Assembly (NCBI RefSeq): GCF_006538745.1
Contig: NZ_BJLR01000035.1
Location: 62,001-126,000, forward strand
From: Cellulomonas cellasea
Lineage (GTDB): Bacteria > Actinomycetota > Actinomycetes > Actinomycetales > Cellulomonadaceae
Length of the DNA: 64,000 nt
Direction: 5' to 3'
Both the position numbers and the translations under genes were made by a program. The notes beneath the pieces were generated by a model, which saw only the letters and a program-made list of their open reading frames with translations, was not told the origin of the DNA and made no database searches. Below, in pieces: positions 20,661 through 51,367 of this stretch; position 1 is the stretch's first letter, and each line of letters starts with the position of its first letter.

Positions 20661-21602
20661 TCAGGCTGGGCCGTACACCGCCTCGGAGGTCGCGCTCAGC
20701 GTCCGGCACAGCTCGTCGAGCCCGACGCCCCGCTCCGCCGCGACCCGCCGGACCGTCAGGCCGAGCAGGTACGGCGCATTCGGGCGACCGCGCAGCGGGT
20801 GGGCCGTGAGGTACGGCGCGTCCGTCTCGACGAGCACCCGGTCGAGCGGCACCGCCCGCAGCGCCGCCCGCAGCTCGTCGTTCGCCCCGAACGTCACGGG
20901 GCCCGCGAAGGAGAGGTACCACCCGCGGTCCGCGCACAGGCGCGCCATCGCGGCGTCGCCCGAGAAGCAGTGGAAGACGGTCCGCTCCGGTGCGCCGTCG
21001 CGCTCGAGGACGTCGAGCACCGCCGCGTGCGCGTCCCGGTCGTGGATCTGCAGCGCGAGGCCGAGCTCCTTGGCGAGCGCGACGTGCGCCCGGAACGCCT
21101 CGACCTGCACCTCGCGGCCGCGGGGTCCGGCGCGGAAGTGGTCCAGCCCGGTCTCGCCGACCGCCCGCACGCGGGGGTTGCTGCGCGCGACGTCGGCGAC
21201 GCGGGCGAGCGCCGCGTCGAGGTCGAGGTCGTGCCGCGGGTCGAGCGCGGGGTCGAGCCCGTCCGGTGCGACCTCGAGGACCTTCGCGTGCAGCACGGCC
21301 TCGTTGGGGTGGATCGCGACCGCGCCGAGCAGCCGGACGCCCGCGAGGCCGTCGGGATGGGCGCGCAGCAGCGCGTCGGTCCAGGCGATCGCGTCGACGT
21401 CGCAGCCGACCTGGACGACGGTCGTGACCCCCGCGGCGGCAGCCCGGCCGAGGTGGTCGTCGAGCGTGCGACCGCCGGCCGCGTCGTCGGGCACGTCGAA
21501 CGCGAGGACGCTCTCGAGGTGGGTGTGGTTGTCCCACACCGGGGACGGCAGCGGCTCGGGGTCGGCCGGCCAGCCGCGCTCGCGGCCGCGCGACCGGCTC
21601 AC
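20661..21602 (-). CDS. TatD-family metal-dependent hydrolase
   Basis: 313 aa. Amidohydrolase-fold TatD DNase family. Metal ligands are readable: DNHTHLES (HxH near residue 25), GETGLDH, LQIHDRDAH, VFHCFSGD and LVETDAPYL. GTG 21602 overlaps the metG stop as GTGA, so it is co-translated with metG, a pairing seen across actinobacteria. The first ~20 residues are Arg-rich and not part of the fold. Substrate could be DNA or D-aminoacyl-tRNA. Confidence 0.93.
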   Translation of the reverse strand: MSRSRGRERGWPADPEPLPSPVWDNHTHLESVLAFDVPDDAAGGRTLDDHLGRAAAAGVTTVVQVGCDVDAIAWTDALLRAHPDGLAGVRLLGAVAIHPNEAVLHAKVLEVAPDGLDPALDPRHDLDLDAALARVADVARSNPRVRAVGETGLDHFRAGPRGREVQVEAFRAHVALAKELGLALQIHDRDAHAAVLDVLERDGAPERTVFHCFSGDAAMARLCADRGWYLSFAGPVTFGANDELRAALRAVPLDRVLVETDAPYLTAHPLRGRPNAPYLLGLTVRRVAAERGVGLDELCRTLSATSEAVYGPA

Positions 21603-23227
21603 TGCTCGGCCGGCTCCTCGATCCGCGGGAACAGCGACGCGCCCTTGGTGACCGCGGTGCCGGCCGGGAGCACGCCGAAGCGGCCCGCGTCCGCGACGGG
21701 CTGCGCGGCGAGCGCCCCGAGCGCGGCCTCGGCACCGAGCGCCGCCCACAGCTGCTGTGCGGCCTTCGGCGTCACCGGGTGCAGCAGCACCGCGAGCGAG
21801 CGCAGCGCCTCGGCGGCGGTCACGAGGATCGTCGCGAGCCGTCCGCCCGCGACGCCGAGCCCGTCCTCACCGACCTCGCCGGGCGCCTTGGCGACCTTCC
21901 ACGGCTCCTGCTCGGTCAGGTAGAGGTTCGTCGCGTCGACGAGCGTCCACACCGCGCCGATGGCCTCGTGCAGCGCGAGCCGGTCGATCGCGGCCTCCGC
22001 GTCGGCGACCGCGCGCGCGGCGACCTCGGCCAGCGCCTCCTCGGCGGGCGTGAGCGGGCCGGCCTCCGGGAGCGAGCCGCCGAAGTTCTTGGCGATCATC
22101 GCCGTGACGCGCGAGGCCAGGTTGCCGAAGCCGTTCGCGAGCTCGGCGGTGTACCGCGCGTGCAGGTCCTCCCAGGAGAACGAGCCGTCCTGCCCGAACA
22201 CGATGGCGCGCAGGAAGTAGTAGCGGAACGCGTCGGAGCCGAAGGTGTCGATGATCTGGCTCGGCGCGATGCCCGTGAGCTTGGACTTGCTCATCTTCTC
22301 GCCGCCGACGAGCAGCCAGCCGTGCGCGAAGACCTGCCCGGGCAGCGGGAGCCCCGCGGCCATGAGCATCGCGGGCCAGATCACGGCGTGGAACCGCAGG
22401 ATGTCCTTGCCGACGAGGTGCACGTCGGCGGGCCAGACCCGCTCGAACCGCGCCTTCTCCTCGGGGTCGTCGGACCCGAGCCCGACGGCGGTCGCGTAGT
22501 TGAGCAGCGCGTCGAACCACACGTAGAGCACGTGGGTCGCGTCCCACGGGATCGGGATGCCCCAGTCGAACGTGTTCCGGGAGATCGACAGGTCCTGCAG
22601 GCCCTGGCGCACGAACGCGAGGACCTCGTTGCGCGCGCTCGCCGGCTGCACGAACGTCGGGTTGGCCTCGTAGAACTCGAGCAGGCGCTCGGTGTACGCG
22701 CTCATGCGGAAGAAGTAGTTCTGCTCGGAGAGCATCTCGACCGGCTTGCCGTGGATGGGGCAGACCTTCTGGCCCTCGTACTCGCCGGTCCCGTCGAGCA
22801 GCTCGCCGGGGAGCTTGTACTCCTCGCAGCCGACGCAGTACGGCCCCTCGTAGGAGCCCGCGTAGATCTCGCCCTTGTCGTGCAGGTCCTGGATGAACGA
22901 CTGCACGCGCGTCGTGTGGCGCTCCTGCGTCGTGCGGATGAAGTCGTCGTTGGCGACGTCCAGCGTCTGGAGCACGGGCTGCCACTGGCTCTCGACGAGC
23001 CGGTCGGCCCACTCCTGCGGCGTCACGCCGTGCGACTCGGCGGTGCGCATGACCTTCTGCCCGTGCTCGTCGGTCCCCGTGAGGAACCAGACCTGCTCCT
23101 GGCGCTGGCGGTGCCATCGGGTGAGGACGTCGGCCGCGACCGTCGTGTACGCGTGCCCGATGTGGGGGGCGTCGTTGACGTAGTAGATCGGCGTGGTCAG
23201 GTAGAAGGACGAGCGGGACTCGGGCAT
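21599..23227 (-). CDS. metG: Methionyl-tRNA synthetase
   Basis: 542 aa. Class I synthetase with the HIGH motif in APHIGHAYTTVAADVL, the insertion CVGCEEYKLPGEL...VCPIHGKPVE, WFDALLNY, and the KMSKS motif in GGEKMSKSKLTG (about residue 310). There is no C-terminal tRNA-binding EMAP domain, as expected for this short form. ATG 23227 is preferred over a GTG two codons earlier. Followed by tatD with a four-base overlap. Confidence 0.97.
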   Translation of the reverse strand: MPESRSSFYLTTPIYYVNDAPHIGHAYTTVAADVLTRWHRQRQEQVWFLTGTDEHGQKVMRTAESHGVTPQEWADRLVESQWQPVLQTLDVANDDFIRTTQERHTTRVQSFIQDLHDKGEIYAGSYEGPYCVGCEEYKLPGELLDGTGEYEGQKVCPIHGKPVEMLSEQNYFFRMSAYTERLLEFYEANPTFVQPASARNEVLAFVRQGLQDLSISRNTFDWGIPIPWDATHVLYVWFDALLNYATAVGLGSDDPEEKARFERVWPADVHLVGKDILRFHAVIWPAMLMAAGLPLPGQVFAHGWLLVGGEKMSKSKLTGIAPSQIIDTFGSDAFRYYFLRAIVFGQDGSFSWEDLHARYTAELANGFGNLASRVTAMIAKNFGGSLPEAGPLTPAEEALAEVAARAVADAEAAIDRLALHEAIGAVWTLVDATNLYLTEQEPWKVAKAPGEVGEDGLGVAGGRLATILVTAAEALRSLAVLLHPVTPKAAQQLWAALGAEAALGALAAQPVADAGRFGVLPAGTAVTKGASLFPRIEEPAEQ

Positions 23228-23499
23228 GCGCACATCGTAGGCGGGGGCACGGTGCGGGTCGCCGTGATCGACGCCCCGCGGACGTCGGCGCGGCGTGCGG
23301 GCGGGCGCCCCTCTCGACGCGGGTTCGCGGTGAGACTTCTCTAACGTTGTACAACTCGCGTTGACCCCCTTCCGAGCCCGCCCCTACGGTGGCGACGCCC
23401 CGCACCCCACGTCGGCGCGCGCCACCCCCGGGACCGCGCTGACCAGCGGGGACACCCCTCCGCGGCCCCCGGTCGCGGTCCGACGGAAGGTTCTCCCCC
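23228..23499 (+). promoter_or_regulatory. Divergent metG / pectate lyase promoter region
   Basis: Contains a perfect palindrome GTTGTACAAC at 23346-23355 followed by a TTGAC-like box at 23360-23365. GGAAGG at about 23484-23489 is the ribosome site for the pectate lyase GTG. The palindrome is a candidate operator for the lyase; the regulator is unknown. Confidence 0.45.
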
Positions 23500-45084: not shown

Positions 45085-45369
45085 CCGCGTGGCGGTGCGG
45101 CCGACCGTCGCCCGTCGCGAGGCGCCCGTCGGCCGTCGGCGGTCGGCGAGGCGCCCGCCTGACGGGGCCTTGCGCGCCGAGCCCGGTCGGGGCGACGCTG
45201 GGGCATGGCCTGCGCACACGGACCCCGCACCCCGGGTCTGCTGCGCCCTGCGTTCGTACGCTAGCCCTCGCCGTCCTGCCGGACACCGGGCGAGGGCTCT
45301 CCTGTGCTCGTCGAGCAGACCTCGACCGAGCGGCTACCCCCAGGACCCAGGACGAACGGACGCACGACC
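45085..45369 (+). promoter_or_regulatory. Leader of valyl-tRNA synthetase-like gene
   Basis: 285 bases without a gene. AGCCCTCGCC (45263-45272) pairs with GGCGAGGGCT (45289-45298), a 10-bp stem about 70 bases before the start. This could be a terminator or attenuator in a synthetase leader. No T-box core or Val-rich leader peptide is apparent to me. Confidence 0.4.
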
Positions 45370-47499
45370 ATGACTGCCTCGACGACCCCACCCCCGACCG
45401 CCACCCCGACGACCCCACGCGAGCGCTACCGGCGCTGGCAGGAATCCGGCGCCTTCGCGCCCGACCGCACGCCCGGATCGCCGGCCTGGTCGATGATCCT
45501 CCCCCCGCCGAACATCACGGGCGACCTGCACCTGGGTCACGCCTACGAGCACACGCTGTCCGACACGCTGACCCGCTGGCACAGGATGCAGGGCGAGAGC
45601 ACGTTGTGGCTCCCCGGGCTGGACCACGCCGCCATCGCGACGAACGCGCTGCTGGAGCGCCAGCTCCGCGCCGAGGGCACGAGCCGTGCCGAGATCGGCC
45701 GGGAGGAGTTCGCGCGGCGGGCCTGGGCCTGGAAGGACGCGTGCGAGGCGGGGATCACGACCCAGATGCGCGACCTCGGCGCGAGCCCGGACTGGGACCG
45801 GCTGACGTTCACCCTCGACGAAGGTCCGAGCCGGGTGACCCGGACGGCCTTCACCCGGCTGTTCGACGACGGGCTGATCCACCGCGCCCGGCGGGACACA
45901 CTCTGGTGCCCCGGCTGCGCGACCACGCTCTCGGACATCGAGGCCGACCACGCCGGGACGCAGCCGGCGTGCTCGCGGTGCCGCTCCCGGCTGGAGATCC
46001 GGTCGACCCCGCAGTGGTACCTGCGCACGTCGGACCTGGCCGCAGCAGCGACCGACGCGGTGACCGGCGGCGCGACGCGGATCGACCCCCCCGACGCGCT
46101 CCGGGACTACCTGCGGTGGGCCGCGGACCTCGACGACTGGTGCATCTCGCGGCAGCTCTGGTGGGGCCACCGCATCCCGATCTGGTACGGACCCGGCGGA
46201 CAGACCTGCGCGTTCCCGTCGGACGAGCAGATCCCCGACAGCTGGACGCAGGACGAGGACACGCTCGACACGTGGTTCTCCTCCGCGTTGTGGCCGCTGT
46301 CGACGCTGGGCTGGCCCGACGACACCGCGGACCTCCGCCGGTTCTACCCGAACAGCCTCCTCGTCACCGGCAACGACCTCATCTTCTTCTGGGCGTTGCG
46401 GATGACGCTGCTGTGCACCTACCTGACCGGGCAGCCCCCGTTCCGGCGGATGCTCTTCCACGGCATGATCCGCGACGCGCACGGCCGGAAGATGAGCAAG
46501 AGCCTCGGCAACACGGTCGACCCGCTCCCGCTCATCGCCGAGCACGGGCCCGACGCGCTCCGGCTCGCGCTCGCGCGCAGGTCCCGTCCCGGCGCCGACA
46601 TCCCGTTCGGCGACGACGACCTCACCGGTGCACGCGCGTTCCTGACCAAGCTGCGCAGCATCACGGCGCTCGCGGGGAGGTTCGGGTGCACCTGGCGACG
46701 GACGCGACCGGCACCGTCGCACCTGCTCGACCGCTGGCTGCTGACCCGGCTCGACGCCGCGCTGGCACCGGCACGCACCGGGTACGACGCCGGGGACCTC
46801 GCGACCGCCGGCGACGCACTGACCCGGTTCGCCGAGGACGACCTCTCGGGTCTGCACCTCGAGGCTCGCAAGGACGAGCTGTACGCCGGCGACGCGTCGG
46901 CACGGGCAGCGCTCTCGTACACCCTGACCACGCTGCTGACCGCGCTCCACCCGATGCTGCCGTTCACCACCGAGGAGCTCGCCGAGACGCTCGGCTGGTC
47001 CGGGAACCTCGACCATGAGCCGTGCCCCGAGCCGGGTGCGCTCGACCCGGAGGCGGCGGCAGCCGGCGAGCAGCTGCGTGCCCTCCGCGACGCCACGCGC
47101 TCCCACCGCGTCCGCCAGGGCTTCTCGACCGCGCCGCTGCCCGCACGCGGACACGGGATCCCGCTGTGGACCGAGCTGTGCCGCATCGCCGGGCTCACCG
47201 ACACGGCCCGACTCACCGACACGGCACCCGGCCCGGACCCCGCAAGCGAGCTCAGCGTGCTCGGGGGGACGTTGACGCTCCCTGCACGGGCCGAGCTCGA
47301 CGCCACGCAGCGCCGCCTTCTGCTGCGTCGTCTCGAGCACGCGCAGACGCAGGTCGACCGGCTCTCCGCACGCCTCGCCGACCCCGGGTTCCGCGAGCGT
47401 GCACCGGCCGCCTCGCAGGAACGGGCACGGGCGGACCTCGACGCCAACACCCGCGAGCAGCGGCGGCTGCAGGCGATGCTGGAGCTGACCGCAGGGTAG
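45370..47499 (+). CDS. Valyl-tRNA synthetase-like protein lacking the CP1 editing domain
   Basis: 709 aa against about 850-900 for normal ValRS. Catalytic motifs are intact: PPPNITGDLHLGHA (HIGH at 54-57), DDWCISRQLWWGHRIPIWY and GRKMSKSLGNTVDP (KMSKS 374-378), as is the C-terminal coiled-coil tRNA arm. Where CP1 should be, TLSDIEADH (residue ~186-194) runs straight into SRCRSRLEIRSTPQWYL (~202-218). The TTRPET-type editing motifs are absent. Two Cys pairs (CPGC 180-183, CSRC 201-204) form a likely zinc knuckle bridging the deletion. It is probably a paralogue of the host valS, possibly for a special substrate or for resistance. Adjacent to a mobile-element boundary. ATG 45370 is a reasonable start. 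Confidence 0.88.
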   Translation: MTASTTPPPTATPTTPRERYRRWQESGAFAPDRTPGSPAWSMILPPPNITGDLHLGHAYEHTLSDTLTRWHRMQGESTLWLPGLDHAAIATNALLERQLRAEGTSRAEIGREEFARRAWAWKDACEAGITTQMRDLGASPDWDRLTFTLDEGPSRVTRTAFTRLFDDGLIHRARRDTLWCPGCATTLSDIEADHAGTQPACSRCRSRLEIRSTPQWYLRTSDLAAAATDAVTGGATRIDPPDALRDYLRWAADLDDWCISRQLWWGHRIPIWYGPGGQTCAFPSDEQIPDSWTQDEDTLDTWFSSALWPLSTLGWPDDTADLRRFYPNSLLVTGNDLIFFWALRMTLLCTYLTGQPPFRRMLFHGMIRDAHGRKMSKSLGNTVDPLPLIAEHGPDALRLALARRSRPGADIPFGDDDLTGARAFLTKLRSITALAGRFGCTWRRTRPAPSHLLDRWLLTRLDAALAPARTGYDAGDLATAGDALTRFAEDDLSGLHLEARKDELYAGDASARAALSYTLTTLLTALHPMLPFTTEELAETLGWSGNLDHEPCPEPGALDPEAAAAGEQLRALRDATRSHRVRQGFSTAPLPARGHGIPLWTELCRIAGLTDTARLTDTAPGPDPASELSVLGGTLTLPARAELDATQRRLLLRRLEHAQTQVDRLSARLADPGFRERAPAASQERARADLDANTREQRRLQAMLELTAG

Positions 47500-47561: not shown

Positions 47562-47607
<46 letters not shown>

Positions 47608-48221: not shown

Positions 48222-48653
48222 ATGCGCCTCCCGGACGATGACGAGATCTACGACGTCGACCAGACCTATCTCGGTCCTCCCGGCCGGTACATCGGCCGCT
48301 TCCGCTACCGCGCGATCCTCATCGGGCCCGTGGTGTTCCTGCTCGGGCTGGTCACGGTCAACCAGAGCGGCATCGGCTACTCGTTGCTGTCGGTGGGCAT
48401 GCTCACGATCGGCACCGCCTGGCTGACGGGCTGGATCGTCGACCACACGAGCCAGGAGCGCCCGGTCGGGGTGCTGATCCGGACCATGTCGCACGAGCTC
48501 ACGGCACGCCGGGCCGTCGTGAAGGGGCACCGCAGCCGTCGCACGCCGGCGTTCCGCGCTCCGACAACGGAGGTGGGCGCAGCCCACGACCTCCCCGTGC
48601 GCCGCCGGCGGTGGCGGTCGTACGCGAATCACGCAGCAGGTCAGGGGTCATGA
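48222..48653 (+). CDS. VirB3/PrgI-like small membrane protein
   Basis: 143 aa. An acidic N-terminus (MRLPDDDEIYDVDQTYLG) precedes two adjacent membrane helices (AILIGPVVFLLGLVTV and LLSVGMLTIGTAWLTGWIV), then a basic cytosolic tail. Such a protein next to the VirB4-like ATPase is expected for VirB3. The start is eight bases after the previous stop with GAGGT between. The stop overlaps the next start as ATGA. Confidence 0.65.
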   Translation: MRLPDDDEIYDVDQTYLGPPGRYIGRFRYRAILIGPVVFLLGLVTVNQSGIGYSLLSVGMLTIGTAWLTGWIVDHTSQERPVGVLIRTMSHELTARRAVVKGHRSRRTPAFRAPTTEVGAAHDLPVRRRRWRSYANHAAGQGS

Positions 48654-51367
48654 TGCACGTCAACCTCAAGGCTCTCTTCGTCAAGGGCACGTCGCAGCCG
48701 GAGGACGAGCCGCTGATCGACTACGACCCCGCGGAGGAGGAGGCGACGACCGGCCGGGCACCCAAGGCCGGCCGCCGTCGCCCCTCTCACCCCGATGTGC
48801 CGAAGCCGCGCGGTGCCGAGATGGGGTGGTCGCTCTCCCGGGTCGCCGGCCATGTCACGTTCACCGACCGCCGCATGACCGCGTGGTACCTGCTGGACCC
48901 GCAGATGTGGAGCTTCCGGTCGGTTGCCGATGGTGAGGCACTGATCACCGCCATGGCGGCGCAGCTCGCGGAGCTCACGGGGCGCACGATGTACGGGCGG
49001 ATCACGAGCCGTCCGTATCCCGTGGCGAGCTGGGCGGCGGCGGCGTACAACAACTCCCCCGCTCCCACCCAGGGGTTCGAGAAGATCCTCGAGCGCGACC
49101 AGCTCCAGCTCGCGACCCGAATGCAGAGCGACAAGCTCGTGTACTTCGGGGTCGACCTGGGCACCCGGTCGGCGGTCGTCGACGTCACGTCACGCATGGT
49201 CTCCGACGTGGCACGGCGTGAACGCGAGGCATTGCAGGCCAAGCTCGACGAGACCGACGCGATCATGGCCGGCCCCGGCATCGAGGCGATCCCTGCCGTC
49301 GGGAACGACATGGCGTGGCTGCTGGCCCGGTCGTTCGCGCTCGGGTGCCCGGTTCCGCATCAGGACAGCGTCGAGGAGTTCTCGTGGACGAAGGAGGACC
49401 TCGACGAGTTCGCCGGCGCGGTCGACTGGACGGCCGAGCCGCTGGCTCTGTCGACCCGGATCGAGTCGACGATGGGCGACGGCCGGATCACCCGGCACGT
49501 CGTCGTGCTCACCGTGGGGCGGATGGGCGAGCTGCTGATCCCGGAGAAGGAAGAGCCGTGGATCGCCAAGACGGACAAGCTCCGCTTCCCGGTGGAGTGG
49601 TCGTTCCGGATCGACGTGCGTCGACCCGAGGACACCTCTCGTGAGATGAACAAGCTCTCGGACCGGATCGTGGCGCAGATCGACCACTACGTGAAGGACC
49701 ACGAGAAGGACCCGCCTCGTCAGCTCAGCCGCCAGTCGGCTCGGGCGAGCGAGGTCGAGGACGAGATGCGCTCCGGGTTCGACGGGCTGCGCACGCGGGT
49801 CCGCGGCTGGTTCCGGATCGCTGTCTCTGGTCCGACAGAGGATGAGGCGCTAGCCCGGGCAACAGCGGTCCAGAACCTCTACAAGCCGAACATCCGGGTC
49901 GAGCGCGAGTTCGACCAGTACCGGTTGGCGCGCGAGTTCGTGCCAGGCGAGCCACTGGCGAACTTCGGCCACACGCGGCGGATGCCCGTGTTGAAGTTCG
50001 CCGCCGGCGTGCCCGCGGCGACCGCCGAGGTGGGCGACAAGCGCGGGGTGCTGCTCGGGTACACGGCCGGGTTCGCGGAACGGGCTGTCACGTGGGACCC
50101 CTGGTACGGGCCCGAGGTCGTCGAGGGTTCGGGTCTGGTCCCGCTCGTCGGCGGGCTGGGCGCCGGGAAGTCCTGGCTGATGGGCGGGGTCGTCTACAAG
50201 ACGTGTGCGCAGGGCGTGACTTGGACGATCATGGATCCGTCGGGGCGCCTGGGAGCGCTGACGACGCTGCCCGAGTTCCGTGGGATGGCGCTGAACGTCA
50301 ACCTGCTGGACTCGGAGCCGGGCACGCTGAACCCCTACGCGATGGTGCGCAACCCGCTGAAGCAGTGGTTCAGGGACGAAGAGAACCCCGAGGTCGCGTG
50401 GCGCCTGGCGATGAGCGCTGCGGAGGCTCAGCGGCGGGACTTGGCCTACGACACCTTGCGGTGGTGCCTGCCTCCGGCGACGGCGGTACGTGAGGAGGTG
50501 CAGAGCGTCCTTCGTGACGCGATCTCCGCGGCGCCGGCACTGGGAAGCTCCACGGTTGAGGCGGTGATGTCGGCGCTGAACGGTCGAGCGACCCGGGACC
50601 AGGACTCCATCGCCCGCACGATCCACGCCCGGCTCTGCGAGGCGAAGGAGCGTGAGCTGTCCCGCCTCTTCTTCGCCACGCCCGGTCGGGGCCACGACGG
50701 CGGCGACGTCAGCACGCCGCGGTTGACGGTGTTCAACCTCAAGGGGCTCGTCCAGGCGCAGGAGGGCAAGCCGCGGGAGGACTGGTCTTACGACGAGCTA
50801 ATGAGCCGGCCGATCATGAACCTCGCTGCCTGGTCGGCGCTGCGCAACGTGTACCGGGCCGACGTGCACGAGCGGAAGGGCATCGCGATCGACGAGGCCC
50901 ACGAGATCACCAAGGTCGGCACCGGCGCGACGCTCGTGCAGAAGGTCGCCACCGACACCCGCAAGCACAACATCGCGGCCCTGCTCTCGACCCAGAACGC
51001 CAGCAACGTCTTGGGCCAGAACATCAACAACTTCGTCGGCGCCGCCTTCGTCGGGAAGACGACCGACGAGCAGGCTCAGGCCGACGCCTGCCGGCTGCTG
51101 GGACTTCCGGTCGGTGTGGGCTACGAGACCGTCATGGGCCGGCTCAGCCCTCGGTCGCGCCGCTCGCACGAGCGCACCCAGGAACCGCGCGAGTTCATCT
51201 TCCGTGACGGCATGGGAGGCGACGGCGGCCGCGGCGGCATCGAGGAGATCCGCATCGACTTCACCAACCACCCTGGGCTGTCGGCGGCGCTGGACACGAC
51301 GGCGGATCCGACCAAGCGTCGTTCCCTGCGCCTGCTCGACGAGAGCGCCGAGGGGGTCGCGTCATGA
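48650..51367 (+). CDS. VirB4-like conjugation ATPase
   Basis: 905 aa. N-terminal half (about 1-470) is the divergent VirB4 region with SCO6880-like sequences (SWSLSRVAGHVTF-type, MGWSLSRVAGHVTFTD). The RecA-like motor follows with Walker A PLVGGLGAGKSWLMGG (about 500), Walker B KGIAIDEAHEITKV (about 743) and LLSTQNASNVLGQNINNFVG. It powers assembly of the mating channel. ATG 48650 overlaps the preceding TGA. It shares a four-base overlap with the next gene, so the transfer genes are translationally coupled. Confidence 0.9.
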   Translation: MMHVNLKALFVKGTSQPEDEPLIDYDPAEEEATTGRAPKAGRRRPSHPDVPKPRGAEMGWSLSRVAGHVTFTDRRMTAWYLLDPQMWSFRSVADGEALITAMAAQLAELTGRTMYGRITSRPYPVASWAAAAYNNSPAPTQGFEKILERDQLQLATRMQSDKLVYFGVDLGTRSAVVDVTSRMVSDVARREREALQAKLDETDAIMAGPGIEAIPAVGNDMAWLLARSFALGCPVPHQDSVEEFSWTKEDLDEFAGAVDWTAEPLALSTRIESTMGDGRITRHVVVLTVGRMGELLIPEKEEPWIAKTDKLRFPVEWSFRIDVRRPEDTSREMNKLSDRIVAQIDHYVKDHEKDPPRQLSRQSARASEVEDEMRSGFDGLRTRVRGWFRIAVSGPTEDEALARATAVQNLYKPNIRVEREFDQYRLAREFVPGEPLANFGHTRRMPVLKFAAGVPAATAEVGDKRGVLLGYTAGFAERAVTWDPWYGPEVVEGSGLVPLVGGLGAGKSWLMGGVVYKTCAQGVTWTIMDPSGRLGALTTLPEFRGMALNVNLLDSEPGTLNPYAMVRNPLKQWFRDEENPEVAWRLAMSAAEAQRRDLAYDTLRWCLPPATAVREEVQSVLRDAISAAPALGSSTVEAVMSALNGRATRDQDSIARTIHARLCEAKERELSRLFFATPGRGHDGGDVSTPRLTVFNLKGLVQAQEGKPREDWSYDELMSRPIMNLAAWSALRNVYRADVHERKGIAIDEAHEITKVGTGATLVQKVATDTRKHNIAALLSTQNASNVLGQNINNFVGAAFVGKTTDEQAQADACRLLGLPVGVGYETVMGRLSPRSRRSHERTQEPREFIFRDGMGGDGGRGGIEEIRIDFTNHPGLSAALDTTADPTKRRSLRLLDESAEGVAS

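Follow-up and report, generated by a model that had tools for sequence, protein, structure and literature searches.

The window analysed here is a 64,000-nt stretch of the Cellulomonas cellasea genome (G000:C35:62001-126000; assembly G000 comprises 4.73 Mb in 50 contigs). Our subject is valS2, a gene at window positions 45370..47499 on the forward strand, as are all features of the locus described below. From its open reading frame (ORF), Pfam, alignment and a structure model, valS2 encodes a protein of the valyl-tRNA synthetase (ValRS) lineage with 709 amino acids, only seven of them valines, and no CP1 editing domain. The ORF is uninterrupted from the ATG at 45370 to the stop codon at 47497-47499. 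Pfam identifies PF00133, PF08264 and PF10458, and the protein has a class I core with HIGH and KMSKS motifs, an anticodon-binding domain and the ValRS C-terminal arm. Sequence and alignment place the HIGH motif, which reads HLGH, at residues 54-57 (45529..45540) and the KMSKS motif at residues 374-378 (46489..46503), while the pocket segment GNDLIFFWA (residues 334-342; 46372..46398) aligns with GYDILFLWV (488-496) of Thermus thermophilus ValRS. A preliminary description of this DNA had named the two motifs and the C-terminal arm, and both Pfam and the alignment to the T. thermophilus structure 1GAX bear it out. Against the NCBIfam valS models NF004349 and TIGR00422, valS2 scores 608.2 bits (cut-off 704) and 539.7 bits (cut-off 612.1), falling below the curated thresholds because the missing domain costs score.

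The 1GAX alignment locates the deletion. Residues 21-197 of valS2 correspond to T. thermophilus 18-193 and residues 192-703 to 335-857, leaving T. thermophilus residues ~194-334 without a counterpart. At the usual insertion point of the editing domain lies a cysteine knuckle (C180, C183, C201 and C204; 45907..45981). Its second and third cysteines are 17 residues apart in valS2 and in six relatives, compared with 158-169 residues in 48 full-length homologues, a set that omits L041-L044 and L046-L048 (partial, odd or other synthetases). The four cysteines align with T. thermophilus C176/C179 and C344/C347, the two halves of the normal knuckle, which ordinarily flank the editing domain; because of this correspondence, the knuckle is not a new part. 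The preliminary description had proposed that about ten residues and a four-cysteine knuckle replace the editing insertion. The loss itself stands, on both the 1GAX alignment and the 48 homologues; the residue count was too low, the actual number being 17, and the supposed replacement is the ordinary CP1 knuckle. An AlphaFold model, a check that had also been suggested, has a mean predicted local distance difference test score (pLDDT) of 81.4 and a predicted template modelling score (pTM) of 0.79, and the PDB entry that it matches best is 1GAX (Z 36.6 over 660 aligned residues, root-mean-square deviation 9.5). Its fold is that of a ValRS core plus arm without a displaced editing domain. Displacement of the domain within the chain was rejected, as core and arm account for the chain in the sequence alignment and in the model alike. 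To our knowledge, valS2 is the first ValRS-lineage enzyme to lack the CP1 editing domain outright in the literature searched; that search, of open-licence PubMed Central, returned no editing-domain-free or valine-purged ValRS.

The same genome holds a full-length ValRS (G000:C19:240908-243616), and valS2 is for this reason a second copy. The housekeeping enzyme is of the alternative type, scoring 1490.9 bits with the NCBI alt_ValS model (cut-off 900), and shares 30% identity with valS2 across the best 409 positions. All seven genomes found to carry valS2 encode such an alternative-type full-length ValRS, 81-83% identical to that of the window's genome, and we reject valS2 as the housekeeping enzyme on this ground. 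The earlier suggestion of a second, non-editing copy is thus upheld: the search for a full-length valS was positive, and the objection that the genome might have no other valS fails. A special role is indicated, as had been proposed, by the fact that valS2 accompanies a full-length housekeeping ValRS.

The most striking property of valS2 is its composition. The seven valS2 proteins contain 7, 1, 4, 2, 10, 1 and 3 valines in 709, 692, 696, 706, 692, 696 and 699 residues, respectively. Nineteen full-length homologues have 63-84 valines each, totals that are slightly high because they come from stop-to-stop frames (core-column percentages are unaffected); 15-19 of these lie within the editing insert, which is itself valine-rich, with 15-19 valines per 158-165 residues. 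Over shared core columns, valine makes up 0.1-1.4% of valS2 and 6.0-8.8% of the 48 full-length homologues (z = -10.7). The next most shifted residues are threonine (z = +5.0; 9.0% in valS2 versus 5.6% in the homologues' core) and leucine (z = +4.1). None of the 23 columns that are valine in at least 70% of the 48 homologues is valine in at least four of the seven valS2; among the remaining conserved columns, 204 of 268 retain their residue (Fisher p 8.7e-14, a test that ignores relatedness). Ordinary proteins contain ~9-10% valine, and in each of four valS2 surroundings (36, 22, 26 and 32 predicted genes of at least 100 amino acids) valS2 has the lowest valine share. Valine loss as a by-product of divergence was rejected, since long-branch ValRS are not depleted (6.9% in L038, 7.7% in L034 and 6.1% in L032). 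These comparisons demonstrate the valine depletion of valS2, and we know of no reason for so specific a loss except a need for translation without Val-tRNA.

Individual residues have changed as well. Residue 337 is leucine in all seven valS2 where isoleucine is invariant in 48 of 48 full-length homologues; the aligned T. thermophilus residue is I491, which we take to line the valine pocket. Other residues with the same 48/48 invariance are likewise changed in 7/7: Ala343 to Leu or Met, Asn178 to Leu or Pro, Asn430 to Ser, Trp489 to Glu and Trp495 to Leu. Next to the pocket, the usual Tyr335 is Asn in six valS2 and Thr in one. Such changes would suit an altered small-molecule response at the active site or an altered specificity.

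All seven genomes share a conserved stretch of 165 bp that ends at valS2, beyond which the upstream DNA is not conserved. This region contains a short leader ORF of 19 codons (MACAHGPRTPGLLRPAFVR, stop TAG; 45205..45264), which keeps its length and is gapless in the seven-way comparison; the DNA after it contains several gaps. Codon 18 is the rare valine codon GTA (45256..45258) in every leader, followed by an Arg or Pro codon and then TAG. Two of the seven leaders have two extra valine codons before the GTA, making three in a row. Among the 36 predicted genes of the window, GTA accounts for 13 of 1,426 valine codons; its share in the surroundings of three other members is 1.1-2.4%. The window's genome has a tRNA-Val(UAC) gene (typing covered the loci of 30 of 49 tRNA matches). 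Read by eye, a promoter-like sequence precedes the leader (TTGCGC at 45170-45175, 18 nt, GACGCT at 45194-45199; 45170..45199), and the relatives have GTGCGC-like and CACA(A/C)T elements similarly spaced before the leader ATG. Transcripts from this sequence would begin at the leader ATG or beside it and be leaderless.

Two hairpins and a competing pairing can be drawn between the leader and valS2. Hairpin 1:2 (10 bp; 45263..45298), the 5' arm of which starts within the stop codon of the leader, is paired in every cell counted and shows one compensatory change, U-A to C-G in L076. Hairpin 3:4 (10 bp; 45306..45331) is not followed by a U-tract; all its pairs are present in 7/7, and none varies. 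Together the hairpins are paired in 138 of 138 cells. In the alternative pairing 2:3, GGCGAG pairs with CUCGUC (45289..45312; 42/42 cells), a possible antiterminator-like form with one variable column, A-U to G-U, and covariation not beyond that of shuffles. The leader folds better than its shuffles in the window (z -3.95) and, less clearly, in one relative (z -2.09). No T-box was found upstream, Rfam at gathering score reporting one tRNA only in the whole window.

Protein searches detected valS2 in four of the 200 family genomes, in six of the 60 from genus g20 and in one of the seven from its own genus, for a total of seven genomes in two genera; the relatives are 73-75% identical to the window's protein, and none has an editing domain. 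When 221 family genomes were scanned with a covariance model of the leader, using stricter filters that lose weak matches, seven gave a match, which in every case lay directly before valS2; valS2 members without a leader would only show in the genomes searched by protein. Across these searches leader and valS2 are exclusively paired. With strict thresholds, no genome but the window's own gave a contiguous match in sets of 396 (phylum), 396 (order) and 394 (class) genomes. Of the 36 phylum matches, the remaining 35 start at query residue 185-206, the part after the editing domain, and the domain is present in all 19 of these that were inspected; the other four of five order matches are full length with 8.1-8.9% valine, and the class sample gave the own genome only. 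A scan of named genomes, a set that may omit records near the window, returned 36 loci and no close relative. Neither a phage nor a plasmid origin was retained: 31 pattern matches in viral contigs included no confirmed relative, and all 271 matching plasmid records were below 60% identity, the best 40 of the 271 being two- or three-piece matches. Among plasmids there are annotated valine--tRNA ligases, for example in Tsukamurella, Paenibacillus polymyxa and Xenorhabdus, which give two-piece matches as full-length enzymes do and represent other second ValRS copies on mobile DNA.

In a ValRS tree, the placement that the preliminary description had called for, the seven valS2 form one clade (100/100) nearest the actinobacterial bacterial-type ValRS, on a stem of 2.32 changes per column. 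Because of this long stem and the odd composition, we are unsure of the placement beyond that point. The ratio of nonsynonymous to synonymous substitution rates (dN/dS) is 0.23-0.27 in five pairs, and by this comparison valS2 is under purifying selection.

We propose that valS2 is likely an emergency, or auxiliary, ValRS that is induced by a shortage of charged tRNA-Val and can be made almost without valine. During normal growth, the full-length alternative-type ValRS would charge tRNA-Val, and a ribosome would pass quickly through the 19-codon leader and leave at its stop codon. Hairpins 1:2 and 3:4 would then form, and valS2 expression would stay low. Upon depletion of charged tRNA-Val, the ribosome would stall at the rare GTA of codon 18, where its footprint, judged from the usual size, would mask most of arm 1; pairing 2:3 would replace hairpin 1:2, and valS2 would be expressed. 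With 1-10 valine codons in a frame of ~700, valS2 could therefore be finished in a cell that is unable to complete ordinary proteins. Being of another ValRS lineage (~30% identical) and having an altered pocket, it would be spared by an inhibitor of the housekeeping copy and could restore the supply of Val-tRNA. The valine-rich editing domain would be dispensable in such an emergency role, at the likely price of some threonine mischarging. Leader translation, stalling, switching, ValRS activity and resistance are all steps that we infer from the sequence. What sets off the response is probably a compound that blocks the housekeeping ValRS, such as an antibiotic, because a second ValRS would be useless in a plain valine famine unless it mischarged. 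Resistance to a ValRS inhibitor had been one of three roles suggested at the outset; it fits best of the three, since the gene is nearly free of valine codons and its leader carries a conserved rare valine codon, while the trigger itself is hypothetical.

The known systems closest to this proposal are those of tryptophan. Vecchione and Sello reportedly described, in 2010, an auxiliary antibiotic-resistant tryptophanyl-tRNA synthetase (TrpRS) under ribosome-mediated attenuation, and the indolmycin-resistant TrpRS1 of Streptomyces coelicolor is said to have been characterized by Kitabatake in 2002 and by Vecchione and Sello in 2009 and 2010. Like TrpRS1, valS2 is a second synthetase with low identity to the housekeeping copy and follows a short leader ORF with a cognate codon just before its stop. 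Unlike TrpRS1, most valS2 leaders have one rare GTA instead of tandem codons, the purge affects ~50 core residues and is far deeper than a reduction from two tryptophans to one, and a whole editing domain is absent; the amino acid and the synthetase also differ, and the inhibitor of the housekeeping ValRS is hypothetical. Attenuators before trpS and leuS have been described in Streptomyces, according to the available part of PMC1262725.

A survey of 11 large actinomycete genomes extends this parallel. Nine of 22 TrpRS copies (22 of 23 matches, the weak L149 being omitted) have an upstream leader with two neighbouring tryptophan codons, which sit one to four residues before the leader end, for example MTTRTCTQLWWAA. 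These nine leader-bearing copies contain 0-1 tryptophan each, so that attenuated TrpRS resemble valS2 in having a frame poor in the cognate residue; among the 13 others, ten have 2-3, two have one and one partial copy has none. The comparison serves as a positive control, although with small tryptophan numbers and no shuffled control it is a pointer. Eight of the nine leader cases (L140-L146 and L150) are second TrpRS with one tryptophan each behind leaders like MTTRTCTQLWWAA, and these leaders are attenuators of the known trpS kind. L148 (G306:C3:341473-342435) is a divergent TrpRS, ~35% identical to the other copies, with no tryptophan in a 380-aa frame; it lies behind a short ORF with a WW pair and is possibly a second cognate-free emergency synthetase.

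Other duplicated synthetases share single features with valS2. Resistant synthetases typically coexist with a housekeeping copy at ~30% identity, according to excerpts of PMC9437257, and the valS2/housekeeping pair, also ~30% identical, matches this pattern; the words 'valyl' and 'ValRS' are absent from the text of that review. In the parts of PMC9437257 and PMC5059758 at hand, the mupirocin-resistant isoleucyl-tRNA synthetase IleRS2 and the agrocin-resistant leucyl-tRNA synthetase AgnB2 are likewise divergent second synthetases that take over under inhibition, but IleRS2 keeps editing and a cognate purge is described for neither. Anabaena threonyl-tRNA synthetase (ThrRS) T2, as presented in passages of PMC4787780, is a stress-induced, editing-impaired mischarging duplicate. 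Like it, valS2 is editing-defective beside a full-length housekeeping copy (the partner of T2 is editing-proficient); unlike valS2, T2 is under the zinc repressor Zur, has an editing domain that is degenerate and not deleted, and forms a heterodimer with the housekeeping subunit, and those passages report no cognate purge. A low cognate bias is known for amino acid biosynthetic enzymes from the sections of PMC4209129 available, and here too an enzyme that replenishes a depleted amino acid pool contains little of the residue concerned; however, that bias is a statistical one among biosynthetic enzymes (the main text never uses the term 'tRNA synthetase'), whereas valS2 is a near-total purge of a synthetase. 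With 1GAX, its best structural and sequence match, valS2 shares core, knuckle, anticodon domain and C-terminal arm, and it differs from this canonical ValRS in the missing editing domain, the purged valines and several changed invariant residues. valS2 thus belongs to an already known kind, the auxiliary attenuated synthetase, and its near-total cognate purge is a feature of which we know no earlier description.

Several observations weigh against the proposed emergency role. The variable columns of the leader number 7, 11 and 8 of 19 at the three codon positions, and because there is no third-position excess, the substitution pattern does not prove leader translation. Five of the seven leaders have a single regulatory codon and not a run. 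Hairpin covariation is not above that of shuffles (62 of 500 as high, for seven closely related sequences), and the U-tract after hairpin 3:4 is absent. A crude simulation of the stall shifts exposure of the start region little, the mean unpaired probability going up in 6/7 and down in L077. Our literature search found no natural ValRS inhibitor, its sole match, in the portion available, concerning tRNA-Gln charging; the proposed trigger is hypothetical for this reason. Finally, resistant IleRS2 keeps its editing in the excerpts of PMC9437257, so editing loss is not the usual mark of resistance. We did not adopt a mechanism in which ribosome stalling frees the ribosome-binding site, the effect in the stall simulation being weak and not uniform.

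The main alternative is that valS2 deliberately mischarges tRNA-Val in a valine famine, loading threonine or alpha-aminobutyrate, and that its frame avoids valine codons since these would be misread. An enzyme of this kind would need to have lost its editing domain, and a valine-requiring ValRS is no help when valine itself is lacking. The pocket change from isoleucine to leucine in 7/7 and the enrichment of threonine also favour it, and ThrRS T2 of Anabaena (PMC4787780, in part) provides a precedent. However, valS2 keeps the catalytic signature and most conserved residues (148 columns), which fits ordinary valine charging, and misloading every valine codon would carry a high cost. We consider this alternative unlikely. 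It is more doubtful still that the leader responds to a drug acting on the ribosome, or to translational stress in general, instead of Val-tRNA, with valS2 as one of several stress-induced translation genes. Leader ORFs of similar size do control drug-resistance genes in the passages available from PMC4191407 and PMC12421871, and the leader peptide is conserved beyond its valine codon, but a stress sensor leaves the valine purge and the conserved rare GTA unexplained.

The surroundings of valS2 bear on a further possibility. Comparison of four of the seven carriers, with genes predicted by a simple rule based on GC content at third codon positions, revealed no neighbour gene common to the four surroundings, only weak matches, of 28-40% identity, between non-neighbouring ORFs. 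Annotated neighbours include an AOC-like protein, an F5/8 type C protein, an SBF-like transporter and a conjugation-type ATPase. A partner gene or biosynthetic cluster was rejected on this comparison. Second synthetases with changed pockets in general serve tRNA-dependent biosynthesis or pathways for unusual amino acids, and the changed pocket residues of valS2 would fit a dedicated synthetase of this sort. Both roles had been suggested in the preliminary description and find no support here, given the annotations of the genes nearby and the lack of a neighbour common to the four surroundings; a valine-codon leader and a nearly valine-free frame would moreover be unexpected, and we regard such a role as very improbable. 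Decay of a duplicate whose editing domain disappeared by chance would account for the scores below the NCBI valS cut-offs and the long stem branch, but is extremely unlikely for a gene that is intact in seven genomes of two genera, has a dN/dS of 0.23-0.27, keeps its motifs and leader and shows a composition shift specific to valine.

Immediately to the right of valS2, a 44-bp copy of the 3' part of tRNA-Ala(CGC) (47562..47605) forms an attachment-site-like end of a conjugative element. It is identical at 44 of 44 positions to a second copy at L074:8973-9016 (G000:C35:134973-135016), inside the tRNA-Ala gene L094, and these direct repeats mark the ends of a ~25 kb conjugative-type element with a PF12846 ATPase at window 48611-51367. 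Membership of valS2 in the element was rejected, as the gene lies 60 bp outside the attachment-like end. Elsewhere in the genome, a row of tRNAs (Arg CCG, Met CAT, Pro TGG, Arg ACG; G000:C29:11555-11990, L101) has scores below the chromosomal ones and is perhaps an extra, mobile set. The window also contains a methionyl-tRNA synthetase (21599-23233, reverse strand), which the valS model matches too and which is probably the housekeeping MetRS.

On balance, we favour the view that valS2 is a bootstrapping synthetase, from which selection removed nearly all valine together with the valine-rich proofreading domain and to which it added a valine-codon switch. If this is true, valS2 solves, for one amino acid, the problem of a repair enzyme that needs its own product, and it reveals an undiscovered natural agent that shuts down ValRS. 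Nature would then have made an enzyme without the very amino acid that it uses as substrate, showing how a cell restarts after losing one aminoacyl-tRNA, and because the editing domain is absent, what a lack of proofreading costs can be measured under natural conditions. The combination of a duplicate synthetase, a purge of its own amino acid and a cognate-codon leader would then serve as a genome-mining rule. Cognate purge may, by analogy with the TrpRS copies, be a general mark of emergency synthetases and of the antibiotics behind them.

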